The notes below the pieces were generated by a model. That model did not search any database. It had not been told where the DNA came from and worked only from the letters and a program-made list of their open reading frames with translations. Both the position numbers and the translations under genes were made by a program. From positions 1 to 40,441 of the IMG/VR virus record IMGVR_UViG_3300032516_000068: a stretch of 40,441 nucleotides of DNA; one strand, 5' to 3'. Origin of the DNA: a virus. How positions within the stretch are numbered: the stretch's first letter is position 1; each line of letters starts with the position of its first letter. Positions 4,924 through 33,840 of the stretch are shown piece after piece.

Positions 4924-4952
4924 GGTATATCTTAATCGGATATGGTGTTTAT

Positions 4953-5436: not shown

Positions 5437-5508
5437 GAAAATATTATACAGTTCTTTCAACAAGTCAAATTATTTTTGAAAGAAAAAGTAACTTGAATTT
5501 CTTTCAGT

Positions 5509-5522
5509 ATCGTTTAACAATA
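5509..5522 (+). promoter_or_regulatory. Conserved start-proximal element, copy 1
   Basis: ATCGTTTAACAATA, five bases before the ATG at 5528. It matches 13 of 14 bases of the element at 15502-15515, which is also five bases before its ATG. Role unknown: promoter -10 region, ribosome-binding substitute or operator. Confidence 0.35.
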
Positions 5523-5527
5523 GAAGC

Positions 5528-7167: not shown

Positions 7168-7201
7168 ATAACATAATTGTTAACAATATATTTCCAAAAT
7201 T

Positions 7202-9358: not shown

Positions 9359-9573
9359 ATGAAAATCCACAAACAATAGCAAAAGCTGGGAACCCGTCGA
9401 TTAAGTATCCCCCAAATATTTTTCAGGCTGTTCCATTTTCAAGACCTAATGTTGGACATCAAGGAAGTCCATTAGTTGATTCTTGGGCTGAAGCCCCATC
9501 AAGTGGAATATTTGTATTGGGAAGTATTGGTGGTCAAATACAATGGATTCCAACAGAAAATTGTGATGCTTAA
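9355..9573 (+). CDS. Small hypothetical protein, 72 aa
   Basis: ATG overlaps the previous stop (ATGA). The protein is Pro/Gly-rich (GNPSIKYPPNIFQAVPFSRP) with a hydrophobic C-terminal strand (GIFVLGSIGGQIQWIPTE), looking like a short structural or accessory beta protein. No known motif. Tight coupling to the 718-aa gene suggests a partner in the same structure. Confidence 0.55.
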   Translation: MNENPQTIAKAGNPSIKYPPNIFQAVPFSRPNVGHQGSPLVDSWAEAPSSGIFVLGSIGGQIQWIPTENCDA

Positions 9574-9630
9574 ATTATTTTATTGATTAAATATTATTGA
9601 GCATATAAACCTACAAAAAATAAAATTATT

Positions 9631-9741
9631 ATGGCACAAAAATTAAGAGGCGGACAAACCGCTGCATCATTTGCAGAAGCTCAAAAGCCTAAACCCCCAG
9701 GCATGACTCCATCACAATGGGAGACTGGCACAGGAAATAAA
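9631..9741 (+). repeat. 111-bp direct repeat, copy 1
   Basis: Nearly identical to 9820-9930 (copies 189 bp apart, in frame). Differences are single bases, such as CAA/CCA at codon 3 and GGC/AAC near the end. A partial third copy (about 9773-9813) lies between. Confidence 0.85.
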
Positions 9742-11525: not shown

Positions 11526-11528
11526 ATT

Positions 11529-13616: not shown

Positions 13617-13621
13617 TTATA

Positions 13622-15451: not shown

Positions 15452-15501
15452 ATAAATTACATTTTACAATAGCAATTTAAACAAATAGTGTTATACAGAT
15501 A

Positions 15502-15515
15502 ATCGTTAAACAATA
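15502..15515 (+). promoter_or_regulatory. Conserved start-proximal element, copy 2
   Basis: ATCGTTAAACAATA, five bases before the ATG at 15521, the same spacing as copy 1 at 5509-5522. It lies in the 69-bp gap after the propeller gene, where a new transcription unit may begin. Confidence 0.35.
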
Positions 15516-15520
15516 AACAT

Positions 15521-16033
15521 ATGGCTACATCAATTGAAAAATTCGTTAAGTTCCAACCAATTCAAGATGAGTTTCAGCGTTATATGCGTGAGCGCAATCA
15601 AGAAGGTCGTCCTAAAGTAGATGAAACGCTTCGTGAGCGAGTTAATAAATATCGAGATCAAGAGTTCCTTGATAAAGAACTTGAAGACGAAGACAAATAC
15701 AAACAAGAATACATTGAAGAGGGGGATCAGCTTCCAGAGACAGATGTTAAGCCAAAGGCAAGTGAGCCTGCTAAACCTCGTAGCGAAGGCGTTCAGCGTA
15801 TGCAGCGCCGGATGCGTGAATCTCTCGGAGAGAAAGACGATACTTCCACGATTACCGTTTCCAAGAAAGCTAAAGAGCCGGAAGAAAAGAAAGGCAAAAC
15901 TATTCCTGCATTTGAGAAGGCTGGCAAACCAGCTACGATGCGCGTTGGTGGAAGCAAGCCATCATCCAGCCCAGAGCAACTTGAAGCTCGTAAAAAAATG
16001 CTTCGTAGAAATGCTATCTTTGGAAGGAAGTAA
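15521..16033 (+). CDS. Highly charged hypothetical protein, 170 aa
   Basis: Very rich in Glu, Lys and Arg, predicted helical or disordered. The N-terminal 65 residues (EKFVKFQPIQDEFQRYMRER, then DQEFLDKELEDEDKYKQEY) are helical. The middle is Pro/Lys-rich with a STITVSKKAKE segment (residues 109-118), and the C-terminus (EARKKMLRRNAIFGRK) is basic. The TITVSK motif recurs in the next protein. No enzyme motif or membrane segment. Its position directly before the ejection-type protein group suggests a virion-interior or assembly role, which is inference only. Confidence 0.6.
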   Translation: MATSIEKFVKFQPIQDEFQRYMRERNQEGRPKVDETLRERVNKYRDQEFLDKELEDEDKYKQEYIEEGDQLPETDVKPKASEPAKPRSEGVQRMQRRMRESLGEKDDTSTITVSKKAKEPEEKKGKTIPAFEKAGKPATMRVGGSKPSSSPEQLEARKKMLRRNAIFGRK

Positions 16034-16035
16034 TT

Positions 16036-17079
16036 ATGACTGAAAAGCAATTCACAGAAGCTGGTAAAACAGGTCAAAGAATAAGAGGTGCTCTTGCTAA
16101 TGCATATCGCGGATTTAATTCTGGATTTACGAATTATGTTCAAGAACCGCTTTTGAATTTGTATCCTCAAGTTATTGCTAACCCAACATACGCTGCTGCA
16201 GAGGCTATTGCGGGTGCATTGGATGTCCCGCTTAATTTAGGAAGGCTCCCATATTACGAAATTGAAACAGAGGAGGAACGCAATAATAGATTGTCTCAAG
16301 AATCAAATATTAAAAATGAAGAAGAGATTACTACTATTACTGTAAGCAAGCCCAAGAAACAACTAGCCACAAAACTATATCGAGTTATGTATGCTGGGAA
16401 GGGCGCTGAAAGCTCCGAAGTATACGAAACAAAAGAAGAAGCTGATGCTGCGTTGAAAAAAGCTGGCGGGAAGGGTGCTGTTGCTGGAGTTAATCTTCAA
16501 CAAAAAACCCGTGGTGGAGAAATGCTTTCTGCGGATGAAACGGAAGCAAGAAAACAAAAGTATGAAAAACAACTTAATCAATCCAAGATGGATAAAATTG
16601 TTTATGATAAGCAGTTGAAAAGGGCTGAATCTCCAGAATATAAGGCGGCACTACAAGAAAGAGGCAGTCTAGCTAACGAGGCTAAACTTACTAAAGACAA
16701 GGAAGCTGGCGCGGGATTTGAATCATGGCGTTCTGATGTTGAGGCGCGTAGATCATCTGAAGGTGCTATAAATAGATATAGCCAGCAACTTGGATTGCTT
16801 AAACAAGCATATAGTAAAGCAAGTAGCAGTGGTGATCCTATTGGCGCTCTTAGAATTTCTCAAGCTATACAAGCATTTCAATCTGATGTTCCTGAAGAAA
16901 TGGGCGATCGTAAGAAATATTTTGAACAAAATGCAGTTCGTGAAAGAGATGCAATGCTTGCTGAGAAAGCTAGACTGGCACAAGAAGAGGATGAAAGAAA
17001 TAGAAGGACAGCATTAGCAAATCCTGATTATACTTACAGTAATCCATTTAGTAGACGCTCTAATTTTACATATCAATAA
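16036..17079 (+). CDS. Hypothetical protein, 347 aa, probable internal-virion accessory
   Basis: A GGAAGGAAG ribosome site lies just before the ATG. Residues 10-70 are Ala/Tyr/Gly-rich (TGQRIRGALANAYRGFNSGF), possibly amphipathic. TITVSK at 100-105 matches the preceding protein. A small alpha/beta segment follows (residues about 113-155, LYRVMYAGKGAESSEVYETK). The rest is long charged helix, with YSQQLGLLKQAYSKASSSGD and VRERDAMLAEKARLAQEEDE. No catalytic motif. The helical, Ala/Gln-rich composition and location upstream of the giant protein resemble podoviral ejection-protein clusters; function unproven. Confidence 0.6.
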   Translation: MTEKQFTEAGKTGQRIRGALANAYRGFNSGFTNYVQEPLLNLYPQVIANPTYAAAEAIAGALDVPLNLGRLPYYEIETEEERNNRLSQESNIKNEEEITTITVSKPKKQLATKLYRVMYAGKGAESSEVYETKEEADAALKKAGGKGAVAGVNLQQKTRGGEMLSADETEARKQKYEKQLNQSKMDKIVYDKQLKRAESPEYKAALQERGSLANEAKLTKDKEAGAGFESWRSDVEARRSSEGAINRYSQQLGLLKQAYSKASSSGDPIGALRISQAIQAFQSDVPEEMGDRKKYFEQNAVRERDAMLAEKARLAQEEDERNRRTALANPDYTYSNPFSRRSNFTYQ

Positions 17080-17080
17080 A

Positions 17081-17842
17081 ATGGCTACAAGAAGACGTGG
17101 AACCACAATTGATGATCTTGGTATTTTTGAGGGTGGATTAACTCCTGCTCAAATGATAATGCAGTCTGAACTTGCTCAAACTCCAAGTGCATTTAGTTAT
17201 GCAGACCTTGATAAGAAGTATCCAACAAGGCAAGTTACTCCAATGGTTCCAACATACATTCAACAAAAACTTGATGAAGACCGGCTTGAACAAAAAGAAC
17301 AATTGGCTACACAAAGATATAGGGAGGCGCAGGCAAACATTTATGAATCGCAGTTGAATGAAAAAATTCAAGCTGCTGAACAAATCCCATTGGCAAGACA
17401 AGCGTTCTCGCAACTCAATCCGCAAGACCCAAAGTATCCAAAAATGCGCGATGAGATCCTAATGAACTACCCATACGTTGAAGGTGATACTGCTTTTATG
17501 AAGAGTATCGTTGGAAGGAATGATCGAGTATACGAGAACTATTTCAAAAAGAATCTTGCTGTTCAGAATCTAACTCTTAAAGACTTGGATGATTCATATA
17601 AAACAATTCAAGCTATAGAGGCAAGTGCGGCTGACAGAGGGCTATCGCCAATGGAGAATGACTTGATAAATATGCATAGGACAAGAATCAAATCTGGACT
17701 GCAACAACAAGGGGTTAGTGGCGAGGATTCCGATATTGCTCAAGCAAGAAACCTTATTTCTAAGCGACCAGAACTAAAGGATGAGGTAAATAAAAGATTG
17801 ATTTCCGCAGGAAAACAACCTATCCCTCAAGATCAGCCATGA
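17081..17842 (+). CDS. Hypothetical helical protein, 253 aa
   Basis: Starts MATRRRGTTIDDLGIFEGGL and is almost entirely helical, with a Gln-rich coiled coil (residues about 60-105) and a C-terminal helical bundle (LKDLDDSYKTIQAIEASAAD, then SGEDSDIAQARNLISKRPEL). No recognisable domain. Ends in an ATGA overlap with the GC-rich methyltransferase gene, so the methyltransferase was joined with exact coupling. It could be an internal-virion or scaffold-like component by composition and neighbourhood. Confidence 0.6.
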   Translation: MATRRRGTTIDDLGIFEGGLTPAQMIMQSELAQTPSAFSYADLDKKYPTRQVTPMVPTYIQQKLDEDRLEQKEQLATQRYREAQANIYESQLNEKIQAAEQIPLARQAFSQLNPQDPKYPKMRDEILMNYPYVEGDTAFMKSIVGRNDRVYENYFKKNLAVQNLTLKDLDDSYKTIQAIEASAADRGLSPMENDLINMHRTRIKSGLQQQGVSGEDSDIAQARNLISKRPELKDEVNKRLISAGKQPIPQDQP

Positions 17843-18678
17843 CTGCCCTCAATCAAACTCTCGAACTACCCCAAGACGCCGCAGGGCAGTCATTGGCTGC
17901 ATCGCCTTGTTCGCTGATTCTTGGCGATTGCCTAGAGGCGATAAAAGACCTGCCGGATAAATCGGTGAACGCGATCATCACAGACCTGCCCTATGGAACG
18001 ACCGCCTGCAAGTGGGATGCGGTGATACCATTCGTGCCGATGTGGGAGCAGGTGCGGCGAGTGCTGAAACAGAATGGAGTGTTTGTGACTACGGCAAGCC
18101 AGCCGTTCACGACCGCGCTGATAGCCTCCAACCTTGCGGCGTTCAAATACTGCTGGACGTGGAATAAGGGCAAGGCTGGAAACTTCGCCACCGCGAAAAT
18201 CCAACCGCTCCGCGTGACGGAGGATGTGGTGGTGTTTGCCTTCGGGCGGTCAACCTACAATCCTCAAATGACTGCCGCGCTCGCTGAAAACAAACGCCCG
18301 CGTGACCGTGCCTACGCCGCCAAAGAGGACACGACGCACGGGATAGCAAGCGGCGTGTTCAAGGTGTCTGAATCTCACGACGAAGACATGAGGCATCCGA
18401 CAAATCTGCTGAACTTCAAGTCCACCGAAGGAGAGTGCAATAACCTGAATCGCGTCCACCCTACGCAAAAACCCGTGGAACTCATGCGCTATCTTGTCAG
18501 GACATACACGAATCCCGGCGACGTAGTGCTGGACCCGTGCATGGGAAGCGGAACGACATGCCTTGCCGCCAAGCTGGAGGGGCGTGGATACATTGGCATC
18601 GAACGAGAACCGAAATACTTTGAAACGGCAAAGACGCGAATCGAGGGAGACGCGGATTTGTTTTCAGCGAACCCTTAA
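17839..18678 (+). CDS. Beta-class DNA methyltransferase (DLPYG type), second copy
   Basis: SAM-dependent DNA amino-methyltransferase, probably N6-adenine. Motif IV DLPYG at residues 49-53, HPTQKP at 207-212, and motif I LDPCMGSGTT at 231-240 followed by GYIGIE. Paralogue of the enzyme at 461-1507: both share GTT-x-CKWD, TASQPFT-x-AL and the SNL-x-AFK-x-x-W-x-WNK block. It has a clean end (DADLFSANP) without the fused extension. GC-rich compared with both neighbours (38 of 60 bases in 18001-18060 are G or C), so recently acquired. It sits between virion genes as a moron-like insertion, and there is no restriction enzyme beside it. Confidence 0.9.
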   Translation: MTALNQTLELPQDAAGQSLAASPCSLILGDCLEAIKDLPDKSVNAIITDLPYGTTACKWDAVIPFVPMWEQVRRVLKQNGVFVTTASQPFTTALIASNLAAFKYCWTWNKGKAGNFATAKIQPLRVTEDVVVFAFGRSTYNPQMTAALAENKRPRDRAYAAKEDTTHGIASGVFKVSESHDEDMRHPTNLLNFKSTEGECNNLNRVHPTQKPVELMRYLVRTYTNPGDVVLDPCMGSGTTCLAAKLEGRGYIGIEREPKYFETAKTRIEGDADLFSANP

Positions 18679-18681
18679 TGT

Positions 18682-21600
18682 ATGGGACTTTTCGACGATC
18701 TTCTTGAGGAAGATAACATTCAGACTGCTCCGAAGCGCAATGGCTTATTTGATGATCTTCTTGAAGAGGATGATCTTGCCTCCAATCAACAGCCTGTTGT
18801 AGATAACTACTTTACTCCTCGCCCACTAAAGACACAGCAAGAAGAACGCGAGATTGGAACATTTGAAGGCATTACAAATGCTGCAAAGAATGCCTTTGAT
18901 TCATCCCGCCAAGCAATGGATGTTGTCGGTGGGGTTACTCCAGAAGAAGCGCAGAACATAGCCAAGATTGAGTTTGATAAGAAATCAAGGAAGCTCGCGC
19001 CTGGTTATGATGAATACCAGAAGGCTGAAGGAATGGATGCGGTATTGGCATTTGCTAAAAACCCAATTGAGGTTACATCAAACATTGTAGCTGAAGGTCT
19101 TGCCGGTAGTTTGCCTGCACTTGGAGCTGGATTGGTTACTGGTGGCGTTGCTGCCGCTGCCGCTGCTCCAACCGTAATTGGCGCACCAGTTGCTTTTACC
19201 GCTGGTCAAGTAGCCGGAACATTTGCTGGATCGCTTGCTACTGAATATGGCGGCAAGGTTCTTGAAGAGCTTCAAGGCGAAGGAATGGATATTTCTGACC
19301 CTGACAGCATCCAAAAATTCTTTAGCAATGAAGAGTTGATGGGCAAGGTAAAGGATAAGGCGCTTACGCGAGGAGTTCCTGTCGCCGCATTTGATGCAAT
19401 ATCTGCTGGCATTGGCGGAAAACTTGGCCGAGTATTTGGAACTAAAGTTCTTACTGAAGGCGAGAAGATTATTGGTAAGCAATTCGCAACTAAAACTGGC
19501 GAAGCTGCTACCGAACTTGGAGCGCAAGCTTTAGCTGGTGGTCTTGGTGAAGTTTCTGGCGCACTTGCCGCTGGAGAGCCAATTGAAGGTAAGGCAGTAT
19601 TTGGTGAGGTTATTGGTGAGGTTGGCCCAGGTTCTGTTGAGGTTATTACAGGGCGAATTGCTGATCAGCGAGCAATGGCTAAAACCAGAGAAGAAGCCAA
19701 GATCAAGGCGACATCTGAACTATCCGCGAAACTTGAAGAGAATAGCGCACCATTGACCGCAAGCGTTGTAACATCAAAATCAGCTACAAATATTGAGCAA
19801 GACAAACTTGCCGCACAACTTGAAGAGGAACTTTTAATACAAGAAACCGCAGCCGCTGCTGCACAACTACCAACAACAGATGCCACTAAAAAAATCATCC
19901 AGCCAGAAGGCATTCGTCAAGAACCTCAAGACGGAACTCAAATCCAACAGGCCACAGGAGCAGGCGTTAGCGATAGCTTACTCAGTGCAACAAGAATCCA
20001 AGAAGAAGGGCAAGTAGCCAGAGACATCGTAAGCGAACTGCAAGCTGTATCGAGCAATACCGCCACAAGTGAGCAGATTGCCCGCCTATCAATGGAAGGA
20101 CTCGTAGATGTCCGTAGAGGCCAAGCTATCATTAACGAGGACGGAGAGGGCATTCTAGCGCAAGCGCAAGCCCCATTGCCAAAGCTCACGCCGGAAGAAA
20201 GAGTGGCTGAAGTTGAGGGGCAAGTAGAAACGCCTCAACCTACATTGAGGGACTTGGTTGTTTCTTCTGGTATTCCAAAGGAGGCGGCAGATTCATATAT
20301 TGAGAACTTAAGGAACGAGGGTCTCGATGATGCTCAAATTGGTGAGATGGCAGATAATTTAAAAACATTAAGGGAAGATGCTGATAGAAGGAATGAAGAG
20401 GATGCTGTAAGGAGCAGGGATATTGCAAGAAGAGCTAGGGCTGGAGATAAAACAGCTAGGGCTGAATTAGAAAGAGAGCGTGGAATTGTAACCGAAGAAC
20501 CTACTATTGGAGAAATTCCGCAAACTTCTCCGATAGTAGGCGAGCAAGTTACAGAGACTACTCCAGTAGAACAAGTTGCTGAAACTCAAATTGCGGAAGA
20601 ACCTATCATCTCGGAAAAACCACAAACTTCTGAGATAGTAGGCGCTGAAACTCCTGCTATTGTTGAACAAGAACAAGTTGCGCCAGTCAGTCAAGAGTTC
20701 AAAGACGAACTAATGATGTCTGGTGTAGCATATGATGGAAACACAAGATACTCGGTTCAACAATCATCTGATGGAACATTTAGGGCTGAACGAATTGCAA
20801 ATGGTCAGCGTGAAGATATTGAGATTGGTTTGCCGGATATTGAAACAGCGCAAAATGTAATTATCAATTCCGTTGGAAAAGAAATTCCTGCAATAACAGT
20901 AGAAACTCCTGCGACAACAACGCCAAAAACTCCACAGCAAGCTCCGAGTGGTATGTCAGTTGAAGAAGCTAAGGCGTATCTTGAGGGAAGAAATAAATCT
21001 ACAATCCTTGGATATTCACCAGAGGATATTATGGCTATGCAGCAAGGCAAGCGTGTTTCCAGAACTATTCCTGCCGCGCCAGTCACCGAGGCTCCCGCTA
21101 TCACGCCCTCCCCCGTAGCTGCACCAGCAGAAGCACCCGCGCCAGAGGTTGCGACTATTCAGCGTGATGTGACGAAACCAGAGCAGATGACGGAAGAAGA
21201 ATTTTCATCTTCCGGCATTGAACCTCAAGTGCATATCGTTAATCAAACTGCATCGAGACTTGGAGTTTCTAATATTAGAGATATTCCATTATCTGAAATT
21301 CATAAACAAATAATTAATGATAAGGTTGGATATATCAATCAAGCTATTGATCTTGCTAAAAATGGAATAATGAAGGGAGTTAGCAAAAAGAAAGCTAAAG
21401 AAGTAGGAAATCAAAGACTATCTTATGCTAAAGATTATAAATTTTCTGCATCTGCCGTTGATTCATACGGAATCAAACTTCCCGAAGGCTACGTCAAACA
21501 AGGAGACCTATATGTTTACCAGCCCACTCCAGCAGTATCTGAAGCTCCAACTCAGCCAGAAGGCGTCGCGGTAGGCAACCGCATCAAGCTAGGAAAGAGT

Positions 21601-24600: not shown

Positions 24601-27216
24601 GCTGGCGCAAGCGAAGCACAAGCTCTCACAATCTCAGATCTTGTCTGGAGGCAGCATGAGATCAAGGCGATGGATCGTGAGCTTAAAGAGCTTCAGACGG
24701 CAGCAGAGAAGGGTTCTCTCGCGGTCATCATCCAGCGCATCAAAGACACTCCACTTGAAGATCAGCAGAATCCGGAATGGATGCAAGGTGTGATCCGTGA
24801 ATACTTGGTTGAGGCAGGACTATCAAATCAAGCTGCAGACACCGCAGCAAGGCTATATGAGAGCGTAATCGCTGAAAGGTTCGCAGAAGCCAAGCAAAAG
24901 GCATTTGAGGCAACGCTGGCTAAATCTGCGCCATGGAATAACTATCTATCCAGAAACGCTCAACTCGGAAAGAATGCGCTAAAGAAGATTCAAGACGCAA
25001 TCAGAACTGGAGTCCTCGATCCAACGCAGACTGCCGAAGGCATCATTGCTAAAGAGAGCGGATGGTCTGGATTTAGTAAAGAACAACTTACTCGCATCGT
25101 TCAGTTAGATGGGGTTCTTTCTGATGAGAATGCAAATCAAGCAGACAAGGCTGAAGCGATGTCTGAACTTAACAAGATTATTGTTAAGGCAAAGATGCCG
25201 GTAAGGTTTAAGGATGCAATTGGCGCTTACTATGTAGCGCAGGCACTCATGGGTATTCCGACACTCTTGGTTAACATCGTTTCTCCAATTGGATTCTCTG
25301 TGCGTAATATGATTACCGACATTGGACGCTATGCGTTTACTGAACCATCGCGTATCCCAATGGCACTTGAAGCATTCTTGGATAGTATGAAGTCTTGGTA
25401 TAACCAGACATTATATGCGTTCAAGAACCAGATTTACATGAACGATGTGGTTGAATATCTGCAAGGTCAGAATGTTCTTCGTGAATTGTTTGACAAGGGC
25501 AAGGATCAATGGGCTAAAGGCGACTATGCTAACGGCATGGCAAATATGCTTGTTGGTATGACGCAGATTACTGGACGGGTTCTTTCCTCTCTTGATCAAG
25601 GCGCTATCTCCGCACTGGAAAATCAGAACATTACTCGCTATGCAATGGAGGCAATGAAGCAAAACAACATTCCACAGAACAAGCGTAAGGAGTTTGCCAA
25701 CATGATCCTGCATTTACGTAGGCAGACATATATGCAAAATGTGTCTAATGGCATGGCGAGTGATCGCGCTGGAGTCTTGGCTGATCTTGCTGTTCGTAAT
25801 GAGATTGTAACCGGACTTTCTTCGCTTGGAATAAGAGACAGAGTATTGGATTCAGCAATCAATGATGCGCTTCAAACTGTTGGTAGAAATAAAACGCTCA
25901 ACATAGATAGCCTTACTGAAACAACAAAGAAACTTTCTGACGATGGCATTCTTTCTTACCTGCCAATTTCATTCCTTGAAAATATTGCAGAGGCTGCTGG
26001 ACGGCAAGGCCCAGCAATGCAGGTTTTTTCTAAGATGCTTTATGGTTTCGCTCTTGTTCCTGCCCGTGTATTTCATACGACTGCATGGTTTTCTCCATAT
26101 GGATTTGTTCGTCTTGCTGTAGATAAATACAAGAAAAACAAAGGCGAAGACTCTCCATACGCAATGAGTCTTCAGACTGAACTTCAATACAAACAAAGAC
26201 TTACTGAAACTATTGCTGGCTCTGTCGTTATGCTTGGACTTGCGGCTCTTGCCGGAAGCTCAACCGACGAAGATGACGAGAAGAAGTTTAAAATTGTTAT
26301 TACTGGAAATGGGCCGAGCTATAGTGCAGACAGGCAATATTTTGATGCATGGCACAAAAAATATAAACCATACAGCATTAACATTGTTATGGGAGATACG
26401 GTTATCCCAATTAACATTGGAAGAGGTGGTGAAGCATTGTTCTTCCCAATTATGCTTGCTGGCGGGTTGGATGATTGGCGCATCAAAGAAAAACTTAACC
26501 TTGCTAAAAAAGAGCCAGAGAGCTTGAACCTTGCCGCAGAGGTGTTGGGGTCTGCATTCTTTGCCTTGGCTCAAAGAGGCCCGTATGCTGCTTTTACCAA
26601 GCCTTTGTTTGATGCCTCAAAAGATGGAAAGATCACAGAAGAACTTGTTGGTCAAGCCGGGTTCTTTGGTAAAACATTTATCCCAATTGTTGGATCATCC
26701 CTATCAAGGAACATTTCGGATTTCATTAGTGATCCAGTTGACAGGTCTTCAATGCAGGGAGCCATCTATGCTAATACCCCTATTGTTGGGCCGTGGTTAG
26801 GCACTAAGGCTCTTAATGCTCTCGGACAACCAATTCGTGCTGATGACTGGGGAGACAGGCTATTTAAGCTCGGTGTGCCTGCTGTGTTTTCATTCCCTAA
26901 AAACACTCCAGAAAATGAACTCAATGAACTGATCTTGAGCAAAGGCAGCGGCCCATCCATTCCTACAAGATCAAATGCACAAAAACGCTTTGGCGATGTT
27001 CTGACAGACAAAGAATTTGAGGTATATGTTCGTGAGTATGGACGTATTGTATCTGACAAAATGTTCAAAAATCGGAAGAGACTTGAAAGTTTACCTGTAA
27101 ACAAATATGATGATGAACTTGAAAAGTATGTTCGCGGATATTCAATTGATGGAATCAAAGTCACAGGAGCTTCCGACATGGCAGTTCGTGCTGTGAAGAG
27201 ATTAAGGAACGAATGA
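18682..27216 (+). CDS. Giant polyvalent/internal-virion-type protein, 2844 aa, with metallopeptidase and ADP-ribosyltransferase-like domains
   Basis: About one fifth of the window. The N-terminus has a tandem GLFDDLLEED motif (residues 2-11 and 21-30), then a hydrophobic Ala/Gly-rich stretch (about 134-190) and a long Pro/Glu-rich low-complexity linker (about 380-860). HELGH at 1118-1122 is a zinc-peptidase HExxH motif in a segment with a preceding Ile-rich strand. Residues about 1250-1386 carry the linker DAEYLAAVERGDMETAQRMV followed by a GFHGT (1279-1283) ADP-ribosyltransferase-like fold with GGAIFVATDINEASVFG. Then come some 700 residues of charged helix and a C-terminal region with hydrophobic segments (for example GSVVMLGLAALAG near 2510). 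This is the plan of phage polyvalent proteins ejected with the DNA. The role may be host takeover or defence counteraction; the catalytic activities are inferred from motifs only. Confidence 0.8.
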   Translation: MGLFDDLLEEDNIQTAPKRNGLFDDLLEEDDLASNQQPVVDNYFTPRPLKTQQEEREIGTFEGITNAAKNAFDSSRQAMDVVGGVTPEEAQNIAKIEFDKKSRKLAPGYDEYQKAEGMDAVLAFAKNPIEVTSNIVAEGLAGSLPALGAGLVTGGVAAAAAAPTVIGAPVAFTAGQVAGTFAGSLATEYGGKVLEELQGEGMDISDPDSIQKFFSNEELMGKVKDKALTRGVPVAAFDAISAGIGGKLGRVFGTKVLTEGEKIIGKQFATKTGEAATELGAQALAGGLGEVSGALAAGEPIEGKAVFGEVIGEVGPGSVEVITGRIADQRAMAKTREEAKIKATSELSAKLEENSAPLTASVVTSKSATNIEQDKLAAQLEEELLIQETAAAAAQLPTTDATKKIIQPEGIRQEPQDGTQIQQATGAGVSDSLLSATRIQEEGQVARDIVSELQAVSSNTATSEQIARLSMEGLVDVRRGQAIINEDGEGILAQAQAPLPKLTPEERVAEVEGQVETPQPTLRDLVVSSGIPKEAADSYIENLRNEGLDDAQIGEMADNLKTLREDADRRNEEDAVRSRDIARRARAGDKTARAELERERGIVTEEPTIGEIPQTSPIVGEQVTETTPVEQVAETQIAEEPIISEKPQTSEIVGAETPAIVEQEQVAPVSQEFKDELMMSGVAYDGNTRYSVQQSSDGTFRAERIANGQREDIEIGLPDIETAQNVIINSVGKEIPAITVETPATTTPKTPQQAPSGMSVEEAKAYLEGRNKSTILGYSPEDIMAMQQGKRVSRTIPAAPVTEAPAITPSPVAAPAEAPAPEVATIQRDVTKPEQMTEEEFSSSGIEPQVHIVNQTASRLGVSNIRDIPLSEIHKQIINDKVGYINQAIDLAKNGIMKGVSKKKAKEVGNQRLSYAKDYKFSASAVDSYGIKLPEGYVKQGDLYVYQPTPAVSEAPTQPEGVAVGNRIKLGKSPQTYTIEEVIPQTAIEIDLGEQYYSVKNERTGEVQVVEAMDMKKVGGKKARKIAVSTQQQMLWSTPNEEIVTPIPEANRYKYEEAVKLVDSYFDKEGIPEGIVIVNNTTDPDLEMKAGYFVDRGQIVINLAYIAKGENLSDIISHELGHFIFSDPQFQADFKAFWDLMTPEEQADADRIINQFYNKETGAIQMEEKQVRAFMQLIQESKAMPKWKQLLDSIKLWINEKLGTNFLVTDRGALSVLAAAHKRFKSGERIIREIDSGVLKTAETAQDAEYLAAVERGDMETAQRMVDEAAKKAGYDIKGFHGTRSQEQFNVFKPNPALGGAIFVATDINEASVFGRVMPVFFKAENVRKGVVRSYNEVQAIAKAKERGQNAIRVTDGMGAPINYAVFNPEQIKSADPVTYDDAGNVIPLSQRFRTTSPDIRRMVAEPRREQVAGRERGDIITTPEGIIKQTNEVLRNKFFDGSEVSDEATLNAWNYIEQMLDIKSGAANDLAGQINDVVDQETNSDTRIGASLFSVSLANYAAKLTAQGDTTMISYIIRRINRMPIDKLAGGISESAAALRAKREYNIDGFNTLKTEGKSKVERTAAALFGTDRPSEEQVKSVDDAIKASEDTSIGEPEEVAGEIEKVEKRTGRKVVKKIEDKIKESTEPKKEELLISFQNLNADKKIKGIKLTYSPEKVNPSKNIKDFIVGKLADYRKTLVNQGAGGLESTFWQTMSDQERKEGPLAELDKAQNNELAKIVQKTLIDLGLKGEPPNTKMTDIEKVASILNENKLSDEKRIEADQRIVAEIERRREGELAAGYTPEAVNAKYDIILDAWNQSMSRQLNMPVSDNMLQRLISSELKEQKKKISELIDEPDGKVTVKTKRNIVDSIIRKIYGVSKEFETGIEIDENYDGLKGYLEKSIDNMYARQIEKKNAAYAKRQAKISLRNNVEGQAQSIIDQLANQLSDTPVFPQKEENQIKAIVQQDLRQKPRMNRKEAWTNQLTAKLIQAGASEAQALTISDLVWRQHEIKAMDRELKELQTAAEKGSLAVIIQRIKDTPLEDQQNPEWMQGVIREYLVEAGLSNQAADTAARLYESVIAERFAEAKQKAFEATLAKSAPWNNYLSRNAQLGKNALKKIQDAIRTGVLDPTQTAEGIIAKESGWSGFSKEQLTRIVQLDGVLSDENANQADKAEAMSELNKIIVKAKMPVRFKDAIGAYYVAQALMGIPTLLVNIVSPIGFSVRNMITDIGRYAFTEPSRIPMALEAFLDSMKSWYNQTLYAFKNQIYMNDVVEYLQGQNVLRELFDKGKDQWAKGDYANGMANMLVGMTQITGRVLSSLDQGAISALENQNITRYAMEAMKQNNIPQNKRKEFANMILHLRRQTYMQNVSNGMASDRAGVLADLAVRNEIVTGLSSLGIRDRVLDSAINDALQTVGRNKTLNIDSLTETTKKLSDDGILSYLPISFLENIAEAAGRQGPAMQVFSKMLYGFALVPARVFHTTAWFSPYGFVRLAVDKYKKNKGEDSPYAMSLQTELQYKQRLTETIAGSVVMLGLAALAGSSTDEDDEKKFKIVITGNGPSYSADRQYFDAWHKKYKPYSINIVMGDTVIPINIGRGGEALFFPIMLAGGLDDWRIKEKLNLAKKEPESLNLAAEVLGSAFFALAQRGPYAAFTKPLFDASKDGKITEELVGQAGFFGKTFIPIVGSSLSRNISDFISDPVDRSSMQGAIYANTPIVGPWLGTKALNALGQPIRADDWGDRLFKLGVPAVFSFPKNTPENELNELILSKGSGPSIPTRSNAQKRFGDVLTDKEFEVYVREYGRIVSDKMFKNRKRLESLPVNKYDDELEKYVRGYSIDGIKVTGASDMAVRAVKRLRNE

Positions 27217-27839
27217 TCAAATACGAGTATATTGATAAATCAACATCTCCTCCTGGCGGATGGAAGATTAAAGTTCCACAGACTGGCATTGAGTTCAAAC
27301 ATTACGACTATCGGGCTATATGTAATGCATACAAAAACCATTGTGCAGCTAATGGGATATTTCTTACTCCAACATGGGAGGAAGAGTTTATTTCAGAGAT
27401 GTGCAAGCAAAACACGCATTGGGGAAGATTGTGTGTAAGTGCAGATATGAAGAAAATAACAAGACGGAGACTTTCACTAACGTCTGTGCTTTCATTTTTA
27501 AACATGATGAAAACATGGGCGCAATCAACTTTGTCCGGCAAGGCTGCATTTGTTAGCCAAGAAGAAGCTGAGAAACGGGCTACAATTTGCGCTGCTTGCC
27601 CAATGAATACTACACTCCAATTTTCATGTGGAGCGTGTATGGGTGCTGTTCTAACGCTATTAAGCTCTATCCTTGGAAATAGAAAGACAGAACGAGACAA
27701 TGAACTGGGTGCTTGCTTGGTATGTAGTTGCTCGTTGAAAGCTGCCGTCCATGTCCCGCTTGATGTGCAGAGGGAAGGATTGAATGAAGAGATTAAACAA
27801 GACTTTGAGAAAATAAAACATTGCTGGAAACATATATGA
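27213..27839 (+). CDS. PPGGW-module protein with Cys-rich (zinc-type) C-terminus, 208 aa
   Basis: ATGA overlap with the giant gene upstream and with the GT9-like gene downstream. Residues 7-50 form a small module (DKSTSPPGGWKIKVPQTGIE and then a helix ending CAANG). The same module is found at the C-terminus of the following GT9-like protein. The second half is a Cys cluster: CAACP (126-130), CGAC (139-142) and CLVCSC (168-173), consistent with one or two structural zinc sites. A hydrophobic stretch (ACMGAVLTLLSSILG) lies inside the cluster. I recall similar two-part proteins in other phages but cannot assign a function. A role with the glycosyltransferase is likely from the shared module and coupling. 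Confidence 0.65.
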   Translation: MIKYEYIDKSTSPPGGWKIKVPQTGIEFKHYDYRAICNAYKNHCAANGIFLTPTWEEEFISEMCKQNTHWGRLCVSADMKKITRRRLSLTSVLSFLNMMKTWAQSTLSGKAAFVSQEEAEKRATICAACPMNTTLQFSCGACMGAVLTLLSSILGNRKTERDNELGACLVCSCSLKAAVHVPLDVQREGLNEEIKQDFEKIKHCWKHI

Positions 27840-28789
27840 ACTTCTTACACGAAAGAGACTTTGGTGATATTATTCTAAGTTTGTCAGTTGTTAAGTCTGC
27901 AACAACAAGCAAGTCAAACTACTACATTCAAAATAACCCTAATGCCGTTAAGTTACTATCGCCACTTATTGAGTTTCAGACATATATAGATAAGTGCTGT
28001 AGCTATAAAAATCAAAGCATTGACGAGTCATTTGTTGACTTTAGACGTGGTGGTTTAGAGTGGGGAAAACCGCTTATAGTAAATCATGCAAGTTGGGTTA
28101 AGCGAGAAGTGGATTTGTCTAAACCTTGGATAACTGCTCCTGTAGATAAGAAATACAAAGGATCAATTATTGTTAACAAGACACAAAGATATGCAAATCC
28201 GCTATTCCCGTGGGTTCAACTTGTTAAAATACTTGGCGACAAGATGCTATTCGTTGGACATGATAATGAATATGATATTTTCTGCAATAAGTATGGCAAG
28301 GTAGAGCGATTGATAATCAATAATTACCTTGAACTTGCAACTGCTATAAATAGCTCTGATTGTTTTATTGGTAATCAGAGTTCTTCAAATTGTGTAGCTG
28401 AAGGACTAAAGCATAAAACAATTCAAGAGGTTTGTTTATGGCAACCAGATTGTATCTATAAACGAGACAATGCTGCATTTTGTTACGATGGAACGATAGA
28501 CACAACAATATCAGGAATTGATATTGAGATAACAAGAGAGATACAGAGGCTTGATAGGCACGAATCACCTCCTGGCGGGTGGAAGCTAACGACAAATGTA
28601 AAGACGCTTAAAAGTTATGCAATTGATGTTTTAATAAACGAAGCAAGAAACAATGGTGTTGTTGGAAAGAATAAAGAGATTGAAGAGAAGATTATCTCTG
28701 AAACTTCCAACGATAAAAAGTATGACCCAATTGTCGAAAGATTCATGCATGATATAAAGCGTGTTGAGGAATTACTACAGGAAGCATGA
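27836..28789 (+). CDS. GT9-like glycosyltransferase, copy 2, with C-terminal PPGGW module
   Basis: Start chosen at ATG 27836 (MNFLHERDFGDIILSLS), which overlaps the upstream TGA; the upstream ATG at 27821 would add five residues. Blocks shared with the protein at 5528: HERDFGDIILS (5-15), VDLSKPWI (92-99), FPWVQLV, MLFVGHDNEYDIFC (137-150), FIGNQSSSNCVAEGL (177-191) and DCIYKRDN (205-212). These follow the heptosyltransferase plan, with GNQSS in place of the usual donor loop. Residues 244-250 are SPPGGWK, opening the module shared with the 27213 protein. The last 50 residues are charged helix. Substrates unknown. Ends in an ATGA overlap with the Dam-type gene. Confidence 0.65.
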   Translation: MNFLHERDFGDIILSLSVVKSATTSKSNYYIQNNPNAVKLLSPLIEFQTYIDKCCSYKNQSIDESFVDFRRGGLEWGKPLIVNHASWVKREVDLSKPWITAPVDKKYKGSIIVNKTQRYANPLFPWVQLVKILGDKMLFVGHDNEYDIFCNKYGKVERLIINNYLELATAINSSDCFIGNQSSSNCVAEGLKHKTIQEVCLWQPDCIYKRDNAAFCYDGTIDTTISGIDIEITREIQRLDRHESPPGGWKLTTNVKTLKSYAIDVLINEARNNGVVGKNKEIEEKIISETSNDKKYDPIVERFMHDIKRVEELLQEA

Positions 28790-29709
28790 AGATATTTACA
28801 CCTCCATTAAAAAGTCAGGGTATTAAGACGAAGTTAGTGCCGTGGATAAGAAATGTAGTGGGTCATGAATTTGATAATTGGATCGAGCCCTTTATGGGCA
28901 CAGGAGTTGTCGGTTTCAATATGCAGCCAACATCCGCGATTTTTGGCGACTCGAACCCGCATATTATTAAATTCTATAGCGCCATACAAGCGGGCACAAT
29001 TAACCCCGCATCGGTAAAAGAATACCTCGTTAAGGAAGGGGATTTACTGAGAAACGCCGACGATGACGGCTACGATCATTATCGATGTGTGCGAGATCGT
29101 TTCAATGAATCGGGTTCCCCCCTAGACTTCTTGTTTTTATCACGCGCTGGCTTTAATGGTATGATGCGTTTCTCCAAAAAGGGCCGATGGAATATTCCAT
29201 TTTGCAAAAAGCCAGATCGTTTCGCACAGGCGTATGTTACTAAGATCGTAAATCAAGTAGATGTTATCGCAAAGATTATTCGTCCAAACTGGAGATTCCT
29301 AAATCAGGACTTCCTAGTGTCCATTGAATCCGCAAAAGCGGGTGATGTTATTTATTGCGACCCACCCTATTTGGGGCGATATGCTGACTATTATAACAAT
29401 TGGACAGAGGAGCATGAGGCAACTTTGGCACGCGCACTAAGTATCACGCCCGCCAAGTTTGTTATGTCATCATGGCACCATAATGATTATCGCGAGAATA
29501 TAGCGATCCCAAAATATTGGTCGAGTTTTAATATCTTAACTCGGGATCACTTTTACCACTCAGGAGCAAAGGAAGAAAATCGCAAGCCGATTGTTGAGGC
29601 GCTTATATGTAATTTCGACTTAGCCGGATTCGATCTGCATAACCACGGCATTATATCCAAACCTGAACAGCTCATGCTACTAGAGCCGCAAACACCCTAC
29701 GTGGCGTAA
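28786..29709 (+). CDS. dam: Dam-family (D12-class) DNA adenine N6-methyltransferase
   Basis: SAM-dependent N6-adenine methyltransferase of the alpha class. Motif I EPFMGTGVVGFN (34-45) precedes motif IV DPPY (192-195), the alpha/D12 order. Also visible are FLFLSRAGFNGMMRF (target-recognition region near 115-129) and the C-terminal block HFYHSGAKEENRKP. Length 307 aa is normal for the family. The target is likely GATC-like, but specificity cannot be read from sequence. GC content is intermediate between its AT-rich upstream neighbour and the GC-rich methyltransferase that follows. A hairpin resembling an integron attC site starts 22 bp after its stop. No cognate endonuclease in view, so probably protective. 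Confidence 0.88.
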   Translation: MKIFTPPLKSQGIKTKLVPWIRNVVGHEFDNWIEPFMGTGVVGFNMQPTSAIFGDSNPHIIKFYSAIQAGTINPASVKEYLVKEGDLLRNADDDGYDHYRCVRDRFNESGSPLDFLFLSRAGFNGMMRFSKKGRWNIPFCKKPDRFAQAYVTKIVNQVDVIAKIIRPNWRFLNQDFLVSIESAKAGDVIYCDPPYLGRYADYYNNWTEEHEATLARALSITPAKFVMSSWHHNDYRENIAIPKYWSSFNILTRDHFYHSGAKEENRKPIVEALICNFDLAGFDLHNHGIISKPEQLMLLEPQTPYVA

Positions 29710-29731
29710 CAGAAGGCAAAATAGAAAATAC

Positions 29732-29787
29732 GCCCAACGACAAGTTCAGCGACGCCGATAGGCGTTCGCTGTAACGCTTTGTTAGCC
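29732..29787 (+). repeat. attC-like integron recombination site, 56 bp
   Basis: Outer boxes are GCCCAAC (29732-29738, fits R'' RYYYAAC) and GTTAGCC (29781-29787, R' GTTRRRY with one mismatch). Inner stem CAGCGACGCC (29747-29756) pairs with 29761-29771 over 10 bp around a GATA loop, leaving one unpaired T like the extrahelical bases of attC. The right half resembles common cassette sites (AACGCxTTGTTAGCC). No T tract follows, so it is not a terminator. It lies between two methyltransferase genes; no integrase is in the window. Confidence 0.55.
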
Positions 29788-29803
29788 ATCTTCTTCTTTC
29801 TTT

Positions 29804-30664
29804 ATGACCGACCGAAATAACACCGACCTCCCGACAAACGAAATCTTCACCGGCGACAATGTAGCAGTGCTGCAAACGTGGCCTGACGCCTGCATCGACC
29901 TAGTGGTAACGTCGCCCCCCTACGACAACCTGCGAGCCTACGGAGGCCATAACTGGGACTTCGAGGGCGTGGCGCGTGAACTGACGCGAGTGCTAAAGCA
30001 CGGTGGCGTCATCGTGTGGGTGGTGGCAGACGCTACCGTAAGCGGAAGCGAGACGTTGACCAGCATGAGGCAGGCAATCCACTTCAAGGACGTTTGCGGA
30101 CTGCGCGTGCATGACACCATGATCTACAAAACGAATAAACCGCCCCAAAACGGAACCAGATATGAACCATGCTGGGAATACATGTTCGTTTTCTCTAAAG
30201 ACGCACCGAAAACATGGAACGCCCAGCGGGAAAAAAGCATCGCTCCCGGCGCGAGCAACAAAGGCGGGATGCGTGGCGAGGACGGACAAATGCGCGAACG
30301 CACCTACAACAATCGGACAGGGGAAACCAAGGTGCGGGAAAACATCTGGTATCTCCCCCGCTCGCCGCATAGCGACGGCAAAGAGCGGCACGGACACCCG
30401 GCAACCTACCCAATGGACTTGGCGCGGCTGCACATCCTCTCATGGAGCAACGAAGGCGACGTAGTGCTCGACCCGTTCGCTGGCAGCGGCACGACCTGCG
30501 TGGCGGCGAAGGAGCTAGGACGCCGCTTCGTCGGAATCGAAGTTAATCCGGCCTACGTCGAAATCTGCGAACGTCGGCTGGGTAACTCTGGATTTGCCTT
30601 GGCTAACAAGGCGATGCAGCCAGCATATCTTTCCAAGAGACAAACAGCAGGGATTGATCAATAG
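29804..30664 (+). CDS. Beta-class DNA methyltransferase (TSPPY type)
   Basis: SAM-dependent DNA methyltransferase, N4-cytosine or N6-adenine. Motif IV TSPPY (36-40) in the context DLVVTSPPYDNLRAYGG, then motif I LDPFAGSGTT (222-231) followed by GRRFVGIE; order IV-I gives the beta class. TSPPY is common in N4-cytosine enzymes. The core ends near CERRL (255-259); the last 27 residues (GNSGFALANKAMQPAYLSKR onward) are not typical of the family and are encoded by DNA containing an attC-like half site (30599-30619). Clearly GC-rich. A TTCTTCTTTC leader gives no Shine-Dalgarno. Its stop overlaps the convergent terminase gene by seven bases. Confidence 0.88.
   Translation: MTDRNNTDLPTNEIFTGDNVAVLQTWPDACIDLVVTSPPYDNLRAYGGHNWDFEGVARELTRVLKHGGVIVWVVADATVSGSETLTSMRQAIHFKDVCGLRVHDTMIYKTNKPPQNGTRYEPCWEYMFVFSKDAPKTWNAQREKSIAPGASNKGGMRGEDGQMRERTYNNRTGETKVRENIWYLPRSPHSDGKERHGHPATYPMDLARLHILSWSNEGDVVLDPFAGSGTTCVAAKELGRRFVGIEVNPAYVEICERRLGNSGFALANKAMQPAYLSKRQTAGIDQ
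30599..30619 (-). repeat. attC-like right half site, inverted
   Basis: Read on the minus strand, GCTGCATCGCCTTGTTAGCC plus flank matches the right half of the site at 29768-29787 at 17-18 of 20-21 positions and the common cassette form. It points toward the upstream site, so the methyltransferase is bracketed by inward-facing copies. No left half (GCCxAAC) is found beyond it. Confidence 0.35.
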
Positions 30665-32451
30665 ATAGATCGAAATTTGCTGAATGCTTGCTTCCATCCG
30701 CTGCTTGCAACCCTATTGTTCGTATTTAACGCTTTTATTGCTTTAGAGCTATCAAGGTTCAATCTCTCCCTCGCGAGAGCTAATAGACCCATCCCCGCGT
30801 CAGCAATGTCGGGCGATATGCCAAACCTTGATTTCATTTCCGACTTAGGCAGAACTTTAATGCGGAGAGCTAGGTTTTTCTCTCCATTAGGATCAAGCTT
30901 CCTCATGCACATTTCCCGCAATAGATCATCACTGATTCCTTTGATCTGACCAGTTCGCATATACTCTTTAGCTGAATACCAAATCTCAGATACAGAGTTA
31001 ACATATCTTTCGTGTGATGGGGTCGGATCATAAGCTGACACTGGATTTTCAGATGCTCGTCCACCAAATTGAAGGCCATATACATCTTTTGACCATGCTA
31101 CGGAGATAAAATCTCCTAGTGGACCACCGGCGCCAGACTTATCGTATCCAGCATTCTTTGGTTGAACGCCCCTAGCTAGGCATTCGTTTCGAAACCATTG
31201 CACAACTTGCTGTGATCTTGTCATTGATTTGTCAGTAACATCCTCGCTGAATACAAGAAACTCATCATACTGAAGTCCTCGATAACCATGTGGTTCAGCA
31301 AGCTTCCCAACGGTTCCGAAGTAAAGCACAGTTCTGTCTCCACCATTGGTAAATGAAGGATCAAGGAATGCAACCTTCGCCTTATCATTATCAAGCCATA
31401 CAGCTTTATCTGTAGCCTTTGAATTTAGTATTTCAATCTCTGAATATATTTGATCCGTAATTCCAGCCGGACACCAGAATCCGCGATACATCCTCCAGAA
31501 CGACGAGGTATTTTTTGCATCTTCTGGAATCTTCTCAAAATCTTGCGGTCCCTCCATCCATGAGTAAATCTTTTTTCTGGCAACCATGTTTGGATTCTTC
31601 AACCCATCAAAATGCAAACACACTCCACGATCTGTCTTCCACTCTTCATCGTCTACATCAATTGAATCCCATCCTTCTTTTGGTTTAGCAAACTTACCAA
31701 AAGCATCTACATATGAAGCTGGGTTTGATATTCCGATAAATTGGAATCGCTCGCAACCCTTAGACAAGTTAAAAAATGCAACTTCAGTAATAGCCTCAGA
31801 AAGCTCAGAAAGCTCGTCTGCAACGAAGATCACGTTTTTGTTGTGGATACCTTGCATCTTGCCAGTAGCATCACGCTCTTTCTTTTTCTCACCAGGAATA
31901 AGAACAATACCAGAAAGGTCTGATCGCTTTCCGCCAATACCAACAAAGCTGATTTTATTCTCTGAATCCACAAGGTGCCCCGGTAAACCAAGCTGCTCGC
32001 ATACCCCCCAGTATCGCGTGATCTTTCCCCAAATACGCTGCTTGGATGCTTTGATAGTTGTTGATGTAGCAAGAACCGTTGTGTTCTCTGGATCGGCAAG
32101 ATAGTTGATGATTGCCCATATTGCGTACGCTTCCGACTTACCGCAACCACCGGAACCTGCAATTGCAAGGTATTCATGGTCACAAGCGGCACGAATCATT
32201 CGCTCAGCCCATGGATGCCATATAAAATTAACGGTAGCCTTGCTGTCACGCTCAGGCCAAAATGCCTTAGCTATCCTTTGAAAGTGATGGAATGTATCTA
32301 CAGCGCCAGTATCAGCGGGTATTCTTTTTGTTATCTTCTCACGGAACATAGCTAACTCAATAGCTATTTGGTGTGTTCCCTTACGCCAGTTAAATCCATA
32401 TTGGTGAAGGTATCCTTCAATTGGATCGCCAAAAATAGGAGCAAAATTCAT
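30658..32451 (-). CDS. terL: Terminase large subunit (packaging ATPase-nuclease)
   Basis: Drives DNA translocation into the procapsid and cuts genome ends. Walker A GSGGCGKS (99-106), Walker B NVIFVADE (206-213), and the RNase H-like nuclease acidic residues D364 in AFLDPSFTNGGDRT and D437 in AGYDKSGAG. 597 aa is normal for large terminases. No small-subunit gene is recognisable nearby. It is transcribed opposite to portal and capsid, being convergent with the methyltransferase and divergent from the 118-aa gene. A TTGCAA/TATAAT promoter with a 16-bp spacer lies upstream. Inverted terminase orientation relative to the capsid genes is uncommon, as packaging and head genes usually form one operon. 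Confidence 0.92.
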   Translation of the reverse strand: MNFAPIFGDPIEGYLHQYGFNWRKGTHQIAIELAMFREKITKRIPADTGAVDTFHHFQRIAKAFWPERDSKATVNFIWHPWAERMIRAACDHEYLAIAGSGGCGKSEAYAIWAIINYLADPENTTVLATSTTIKASKQRIWGKITRYWGVCEQLGLPGHLVDSENKISFVGIGGKRSDLSGIVLIPGEKKKERDATGKMQGIHNKNVIFVADELSELSEAITEVAFFNLSKGCERFQFIGISNPASYVDAFGKFAKPKEGWDSIDVDDEEWKTDRGVCLHFDGLKNPNMVARKKIYSWMEGPQDFEKIPEDAKNTSSFWRMYRGFWCPAGITDQIYSEIEILNSKATDKAVWLDNDKAKVAFLDPSFTNGGDRTVLYFGTVGKLAEPHGYRGLQYDEFLVFSEDVTDKSMTRSQQVVQWFRNECLARGVQPKNAGYDKSGAGGPLGDFISVAWSKDVYGLQFGGRASENPVSAYDPTPSHERYVNSVSEIWYSAKEYMRTGQIKGISDDLLREMCMRKLDPNGEKNLALRIKVLPKSEMKSRFGISPDIADAGMGLLALARERLNLDSSKAIKALNTNNRVASSGWKQAFSKFRSIY

Positions 32452-32504
32452 TTAAAAAATATTATAATAAAACAAAAAATATCGCAATTAGTTATTGCAA
32501 TAAA

Positions 32505-32532
32505 ATTATAGTCTGTTATTTTATTTTTGCAA
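32505..32532 (-). promoter_or_regulatory. Candidate promoter for terL in divergent region
   Basis: Minus strand TTGCAA (32527-32532), 16-bp spacer, TATAAT (32505-32510). The 80-bp region between the divergent genes is extremely AT-rich. It also holds an inverted repeat GCAAT/ATTGC around TAGTT that could be an operator. A second TATAAT lies closer to the terL start. Confidence 0.4.
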
Positions 32533-32888
32533 TGACACTCCTACAAGAACTGGGAATCCAGAAAACTAAGTCAGAGATTTTTATTGACAAGAAGCGTCCA
32601 GACATTGATTTTAAAATCATAGTTAAACCAGAAGATTATGTTAATGGAATTAAACATGACCCCACAAAGTCTCCACTTGCTATTGCGGTATCACGCGCAA
32701 TCAATGGCAGTGGATTCGCGCTTGATAGGGCAGGCTTTAAAGTTATCATTATTTCTCGCGGCATTTACGAGTATGCTTTCTTTATGCCTCGGAGGGTGTG
32801 GAGGAAGGTGAATTGCCAAGAGTTCGTTGATGAACGATATCCATCGTCTCCGATAAAGTTCACGGCAACATTCACAATGTTATTTTAA
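32532..32888 (+). CDS. Hypothetical protein, 118 aa
   Basis: First gene of the rightward head module, starting from an AT-rich divergent promoter region. Mixed alpha/beta: DFKIIVKPEDYVNGIKHDPT, then a helix (SPLAIAVSRAINGSGFALDR) and strands (FKVIIISRGIYEYAFFMPRR). It ends only two bases before the next gene. It has no membrane segment and no known catalytic motif. The repetition of short strands around a helix could be a small nucleic-acid- or protein-binding fold. Function unknown. Confidence 0.6.
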   Translation: MTLLQELGIQKTKSEIFIDKKRPDIDFKIIVKPEDYVNGIKHDPTKSPLAIAVSRAINGSGFALDRAGFKVIIISRGIYEYAFFMPRRVWRKVNCQEFVDERYPSSPIKFTATFTMLF

Positions 32889-32889
32889 T

Positions 32890-33840
32890 ATGAAGCTAGT
32901 AATACCAGTATCTCGGCATGATCGTTATTTGATCCCTGCCTTCTTAAAATCAATCGAAAAATTCAATCCAGGCTCAGAGCATGAACTTCTTGTATTTGGA
33001 TCACGCGAGGTTGAACGTGATGTCATTGATATTGAAAGTAAGATTAAACATCTATTTGATTCATCTGAAACTCTGATTATTGATGACACAATACTTGGAT
33101 GGCCAATGTCATGTAACTTCTACTTCCAGCAATTATGCAGATACATTTCTGGAAAGAGTGATATCGAGGCGTTTATGTGGTTTGAATTGGATACTACAAT
33201 TATAAAAGACAATTGGCTTGATATAATTTCTGACGTATACTATTCAGATGCAACTAAAGCAGCTAAAGAAAAACGTGATCCTGCAATTTACCTTGGATCA
33301 AGAGAGAGGGTTTATGAGGGTAATAATGGCGAGCTTTTGCCCGAGTCATTAGCTGGTCAGCGTATGGCTCCTGTTGGAGTGTATTCCAGAGAGATATGCT
33401 TTTCACCTGTATTAAATTCCTTGTCACTTACAAACAGGCATTGGACGCATGTCATCCAATGGTATGTTGTTAATAGACTAAAAAACTCTTCATTGATTCA
33501 AAATAACTGGCGCACAAAAAACTATCGCCATGAAGATAAAAACATTGTGTGTGATTCTGATGCCAATTTAGCTTGGGATGTTCACTGGAATAAACCAGTT
33601 GATGAAGGTGCTGTCCTTGTGCATGGTTGCAAGGATAGTTCTCTTTTCAAGTTATTGTTGGACAATAATAATAACGATATGAAAATGGTAAAAAATTTAT
33701 CAGTTGATGATGCTGAAGACATCTTGGATGACATCGAGGATGTTACGGATTCTGATGTAGAAAAACATTCTAAATTGCATAGACAACGCATATCAAACAT
33801 TAAGTCCCTTAAAAAGAAACAAAAGGAAAAAGAAGAATGA
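32890..33840 (+). CDS. GT-A-like glycosyltransferase, 316 aa
   Basis: Begins with the GT-A/GT2-type strand MKLVIPVSRHDRYLIPAFLKS and the nucleotide-binding helix. A DxD-like metal/donor motif is seen in FMWFELDTTI (ELD at residues 99-101). A C-terminal VHGCKDSSLF segment (about 255-265) could supply the conserved His of such enzymes. The last 60 residues are a charged tail (DDAEDILDDIEDVTDSDVEK, then KSLKKKQKEKEE) not needed for catalysis. Being squeezed between the head genes (ATGA overlap with portal) it suggests modification of a virion component. Sugar and acceptor unknown. Homology rests on fold-level motifs and is not certain. Confidence 0.6.
   Translation: MKLVIPVSRHDRYLIPAFLKSIEKFNPGSEHELLVFGSREVERDVIDIESKIKHLFDSSETLIIDDTILGWPMSCNFYFQQLCRYISGKSDIEAFMWFELDTTIIKDNWLDIISDVYYSDATKAAKEKRDPAIYLGSRERVYEGNNGELLPESLAGQRMAPVGVYSREICFSPVLNSLSLTNRHWTHVIQWYVVNRLKNSSLIQNNWRTKNYRHEDKNIVCDSDANLAWDVHWNKPVDEGAVLVHGCKDSSLFKLLLDNNNNDMKMVKNLSVDDAEDILDDIEDVTDSDVEKHSKLHRQRISNIKSLKKKQKEKEE

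Follow-up and report, generated by a model that had tools for sequence, protein, structure and literature searches.

A single integron-type methyltransferase cassette in a tailed phage genome and the matching empty site in a sister phage

The virus record examined here, IMGVR_UViG_3300032516_000068 (the window: the whole analysed stretch of 40,441 nt), contains at 29732-29787 a hairpin that its sequence identifies as an integron attC site. The segment 29738-30606 is very probably a complete mobile cassette, inserted by recombination of the integron-integrase type into an attG-like GTTGGGC site in the gap between a Dam-type and a terminase-like gene of a tailed phage. The observations behind this reading are a precise filled/empty pair formed with a sister phage, the architecture and polarity of an attC, and the location of both breakpoints at G^TT.

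The sister phage is represented by a viral contig of 6573 bp, IMGVR_UViG_3300031885_001155 (L003), found when the neighbouring Dam-type protein was used as query; among the viral contigs searched for further empty sites, it alone has one. On the left, window positions 25526-29738 align with it at 99.93% identity (3 mismatches in 4213 bp), and on the right positions 30626-32925 align at 99.4%, while exactly 869 bp, window 29738-30606, are missing from L003. When this segment is deleted in silico, with AAC split between its A and C, the sequence left is exactly that of L003. The empty junction reads ...AAAATACGCCCAAC AAGGCGATGCAGCC..., and the window junctions read ...GCCCAAC GACAAG... on the left and ...GGCTAAC AAGGCG... 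on the right, with a 3-bp overlap (AAC) at the insert ends. The original prediction had suggested that a cassette recombination site would explain how the methyltransferase was captured, and this explanation holds, since the sister phage lacks both hairpin and gene and its breakpoints fall exactly at the attC boxes. It had also named as contrary evidence relatives that keep the gene arrangement and lack the hairpin. This contrary case did not arise: the relative found here has the same surrounding genes and lacks the hairpin together with the methyltransferase.

At both ends of the insert the break falls at A|C within AAC, a position that on the other strand corresponds to the G^TT cleavage point in the R boxes of integrons. 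Integron integrases cleave at G^TT, and their secondary-site motif is GNT or GTTRRRY (PMC10127599). The empty site of L003, ACGCCCAACAAGGCGATGCAGCC at 4205-4227, reads GTTGGGC on the minus strand, a perfect GTTRRRY, and thus has what defines an attG or secondary site: GTT at the crossover, extendable to GTTRRRY, with no need of L boxes. The left half of this target persists in the window at 29732-29737 (minus) and together with base 30607 rebuilds GTTGGGC. The other cassette boundary, mapped from the L003 junction to 30601-30607 (minus), reads G^TTAGCC (GGCTAAC on the plus strand), in which TTAGCC belongs to the cassette and G to the phage. Because the record derives from an uncultivated virus, a bacterial cassette might have been joined to a phage contig during metagenome assembly; however, the sequence on either side of the insert is that of one and the same phage, in register with L003, and the two joints lie at recombinase cleavage points, and such a chimera is extremely improbable. 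At 30637-30643, some 30 bp outside the cassette, the window also lacks 42 bp that L003 and more distant relatives have between two GAGACAA direct repeats, probably a slippage deletion.

The 56-nt imperfect palindrome is present at 29732-29787 as predicted, and its fold stands out from dinucleotide shuffles (z = -2.9; 3/200 shuffles equally good). By covariance model R1 and an architecture scan, the attC as present in the phage occupies 29732-29787 on the minus strand and comprises an R'' box GGCTAAC (29787-29781, complement of 29781-29787), spacer'' (29780-29773), L'' box (29771-29766), upper stem and loop (29764-29753), L' box (29752-29747), spacer' (29746-29739) and R' box G^TTGGGC (29738-29732, complement of 29732-29738). 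One unpaired T had been proposed for the inner stem; the plus-strand fold has two, bulged at 29772 and 29765. The former is the first extrahelical base, which sets strand choice, located on the L'' arm and here a T where G is usual; the latter, 7 nt away, is the second extrahelical T of the attC bottom strand, which corresponds to the plus strand of the window. The scanned dimensions, spacer'' of 8 followed by the extrahelical base and an L'' of 6, and spacer' of 8, are like those of real attCs, and L'' is paired at 6/6 positions plus two further pairs.

In the circular form of the cassette the outer R boxes become GGCTAAC/GTTAGCC, complementary at 7/7 positions and each one base off RYYYAAC/GTTRRRY, as in some real attCs. 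The inner L boxes form a 6-bp stem, the R''-L'' arm carries two bulged T, the central spacer is unpaired, and the bottom strand of the circularised cassette shows the classical attC fold of outer stem, unpaired spacer and inner stem with two bulged T. The deviation of GTTAGCC from GTTRRRY at one position, already pointed out for this site, recurs in the R' box of 2/28 real intI-linked attCs, and GGCTAAC likewise serves as R'' in 2/28. The first 15 nt of the window attC, GGCTAACAAAGCGTT, are identical in one real attC (L154); a search of viral contigs for an attC beginning with the same 15 nt found none.

R1 was made for this analysis, and is not the model of IntegronFinder, from 27 trimmed and aligned attCs taken from bacterial arrays linked to intI. 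Matches above cut-off to TIGR02249, the integron integrase family, were present in 56/299 genomes, all drawn from one phylum, and attCs were collected from the DNA on the array side of the intI genes, with orientation set by intI position; region 1-20000 of R751, considered as a further source of attCs, had no cassettes in its gene list. The collected sites are built alike (R'' 7, spacer 8, one extrahelical base, L'' 6, ... L' 6, spacer 8-9, R' 7), and usually R'' is followed by AA and GTT is preceded by C. For the window site R1 gives 41.2 bits (E 2.5e-8) on the minus strand and 8.6 bits on plus. In 679 kb made up of the window and related phage loci no other match exceeds 14.4 bits, and other integron loci, some of which overlap or are partly in the training set, reach up to 61 bits. 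The covariance-model check proposed for the site, in which the lack of a hit would have spoken against it, thus returned a strong match, and the attC-type identity was borne out.

A palindrome just downstream of the Dam-type gene could also be an intergenic terminator or some other unrelated structure, particularly as attC hairpins may themselves be weak terminators. Nevertheless, a scan found no plus-strand terminator at 29732-29787 and no T tract after the hairpin, in agreement with the original prediction. Together with the 41.2-bit score and the exact insertion ends this leaves the idea next to impossible, and the filled/empty pair refutes it.

The polarity of the site differs from the one first assigned to it. 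On the R''-L'' arm of an attC the extrahelical bases are a conserved G and then a T 6-8 nt further, the spacer on that arm is A-rich, and C precedes GTT (PMC2727003). The minus reading agrees with all these rules except that T takes the place of G as the first extrahelical base, a change that reduced VCR recombination only about 1.8-fold (PMC2727003), and its crossover lies at the R' box, as expected of normal bottom-strand recombination. The two boxes of the original prediction, GCCCAAC as R'' and GTTAGCC as R', are indeed present, but their roles are reversed: because the attC reads on the minus strand, GCCCAAC (29732-29738) is mostly phage target and the true R'' of the cassette is GGCTAAC. 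The opposite polarity would give a forward gene with its attC at the 3' end, inserted through the normally inactive top strand. It has some appeal, as the layout resembles a forward cassette, the gene starts 16 nt after GTTAGCC and the circular form places a stop codon (TAA) within the attC. Even so, this arrangement puts the extrahelical bases on the wrong arm, has neither AA following R'' nor C preceding GTT, requires the disfavoured strand and scores 8.6 against 41.2 bits, a value at which the plus-strand reading was rejected; we regard it as very unlikely and take the polarity, judged from these sequence features, to be minus.

Delimited in this way, the cassette (29738-30606, minus, 869 bp by comparison with L003) reads TTAGCC...GTCG from G^TT to G^TT and is a discrete unit between cleavage points, with one attC, one methyltransferase gene and ends that are exact against L003. 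Its GC content is 57.4%, against a mean of 42% for other segments. The gene, at 29804-30664 on the plus strand, encodes an N6_N4_Mtase DNA methyltransferase (PF01555, E 1.8e-42) of 286 aa as it stands; 267 full codons come from the cassette and the last 18-19 residues (KAMQPAYLSKRQTAGIDQ) from phage DNA past the right junction. The enzyme is of the beta-type N6/N4 class, and both N4-cytosine and N6-adenine enzymes are among its relatives in the PDB, so that it may modify either base. Gene on the plus strand and attC polarity on the minus strand make a minority arrangement, matching orientation being typical but not obligatory. Two more N6_N4 methyltransferase genes, at 461-1603 (minus) and 17839-18678 (plus), both lie in GC-rich stretches (about 53-55% versus 42%), and the window phage has four DNA methyltransferases, counting the Dam-type and cassette genes.

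The site was correctly placed between the Dam-type gene and the GC-rich methyltransferase. The former, at 28786-29709 on the plus strand, belongs to the D12 class of adenine methyltransferases (PF02086, E 1e-35) and is 100% identical in the window and L003. Its possible status as a second cassette was rejected: the upstream gene runs over its start, and the window has no second attC. On the other side lies a convergent terminase-large-like gene (30658-32451, minus; weak tblastn matches to annotated phage terminases), kept in 63 viral loci, several of them on contigs of 67.8-69 kb. Comparison of a 764-aa protein with 50,697 phage records gave no match. Neither the 40-kb window nor six relatives of 67.8-69 kb has a tyrosine integrase of the Phage_integrase family, and the integrase that acted was for this reason presumably the host's; without such a gene in its 40-kb record, the window does not hold a complete integron of intI, attI and cassettes. 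A lytic lifestyle is plausible for this phage.

Between orf322 and the terminase-like gene lies a hotspot of gene exchange in which relatives carry different genes: in L013-L075 one to three other genes stand where the window phage has the Dam-type gene and the cassette, and the DNA that adjoins the target on its right is a 3' remnant from one such gene. Entry of the methyltransferase by ordinary illegitimate or homologous recombination, with attC-like ends arising by chance or carried along, would suit such a locus, and routes of that kind have been proposed for phage attCs (Qi et al. 2023, PMC9892861). It would, however, have to place both breakpoints exactly at the R-box cleavage point with only 3 bp shared, and to yield a circle that closes into a perfect attC; we consider it highly improbable.

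The direction of the event is best read as gain in the window lineage and not loss in L003, by parsimony, because the cassette is absent from all other relatives; a single empty-site contig is known. The reverse course, in which the ancestor had the cassette and L003 lost it through precise excision, would leave a footprint identical to that of insertion, and only two Dam-bearing members are known in this phage group. Yet the other 60-odd loci with a related terminase-like gene have neither an attC nor a copy of this methyltransferase, so that gain is the shorter story, and excision is expected to be rarer at a site without L boxes. Loss is accordingly unlikely.

The insertion may have proceeded as follows. 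The bottom strand of the free circular cassette (plus strand of the window) would fold with two bulged T, and IntI in a bacterial host would join the cassette to the R-type box of the phage while phage DNA is in the cell, the product of attC x secondary-site recombination being resolved by replication. Co-directional with the Dam-type gene and just downstream of it, the methyltransferase would be expressed from a phage transcript and could help phage DNA to escape host restriction.

An integrase or a donor integron with this cassette was not found in 84,980 genome species, plasmids, phages and viral contigs. Among viral contigs a close relative of the methyltransferase (78-80% identical) occurs only in L002, which has no attC. 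The search of the 84,980 genome species returned 14 relatives, the best of them 54% identical over part of its length and 40-50% over the rest, and in plasmids and phages identity is at most about 48% among the matches listed. In contig L079 a methyltransferase with 49% identity precedes an attC-type hairpin (5888-6015), after which comes another cassette-like unit with its own hairpin (6514-6622), and the genome bin of L079 has an integron integrase at 425 bits. R1 scores on these hairpins, which have long loops, are weak (20.5 bits, and 9.3 bits unfiltered), and their attC assignment rests on fold and architecture. The stretch L079:5080-6640, in which the methyltransferase appears cassette-like, is part of a Chloroflexi-binned contig and may reflect bin contamination. 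Methyltransferases of this type probably move in cassettes elsewhere too.

Cassette arrays do occur in viral records, as one exact-pattern scan returned viral contigs with at least one good attC each (L177, L178, L186, L187, L188, L190 and L194-L197; up to 64.8 bits), and L190 has about a dozen good sites in that scan. In virus records of 8-12 kb (L180, L183, L191, L192 and L193) a common palindrome, GCCTAAC...GTTAGGC, was not scored by R1 at E 0.01; L183 has about 520 extra bp between two copies of the right half of this palindrome, as if units had been inserted there too.

The pair described here is a natural before/after record of cassette entry into a phage genome with breakpoints resolved to the base, and it speaks for the entry of cassettes into phages through the site-specific action of an integrase, whereas the published survey was able to suggest only non-specific routes. 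It suggests that insertions with one attC, which standard settings remove, are worth seeking in viral collections. Integrons are now regarded as stores of anti-phage defence genes, and a DNA methyltransferase as cargo fits a trade in anti-restriction genes between integrons and phages. It is tempting to speculate, although we hold this to be somewhat short of an even prospect, that virulent phages take single cassettes from host integrons during infection, by means of the host integrase and at scattered GTT sites, and retain those that are of use, anti-restriction methyltransferases for example. If so, phages would routinely draw on the cassette pool and transport its members, and would have been overlooked because surveys demanded two attCs.

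Reverse-oriented gene cassettes occur in chromosomal integrons, and as in these the gene runs here against attC polarity, with the difference that it resides in a phage and is co-directional with the neighbouring phage gene. Cassette recombination sites are also less of a novelty in lytic phages than their supposed rarity suggested: attCs and cassettes have been reported from temperate and virulent phages, with five predicted methyltransferases, including N6_N4_Mtase, among the cassette genes and 5/6 tested phage attC sites functional with IntI1 (Qi et al. 2023, PMC9892861). Only clusters of two or more attCs were admitted to that survey, which suggested homologous or illegitimate recombination without settling the entry route. 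Both studies concern an attC with a methyltransferase cassette in a phage; the present cassette, with its one attC, falls outside the scope of that survey, and its filled/empty pair shows base-exact entry. Phage attCs, some with methyltransferases, were thus known already, and what is new is the lone cassette with its matched pair. Cassettes leaving an integron insert at attG sites in bacterial genomes (Loot et al. 2024, as related in PMC12901181 and PMC12444791), and the present case likewise has a cassette joining a GTT or GTTRRRY site elsewhere (PMC12901181, PMC12444791, PMC10127599). The cases that these accounts describe concern bacterial chromosomes and plasmids and are largely experimental, whereas the event reported here is a natural one in a phage genome. 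As far as the accounts describe attG insertion, the finding joins the phage attCs of Qi et al. (2023) with the attG-site cassette insertion of Loot et al. (2024).
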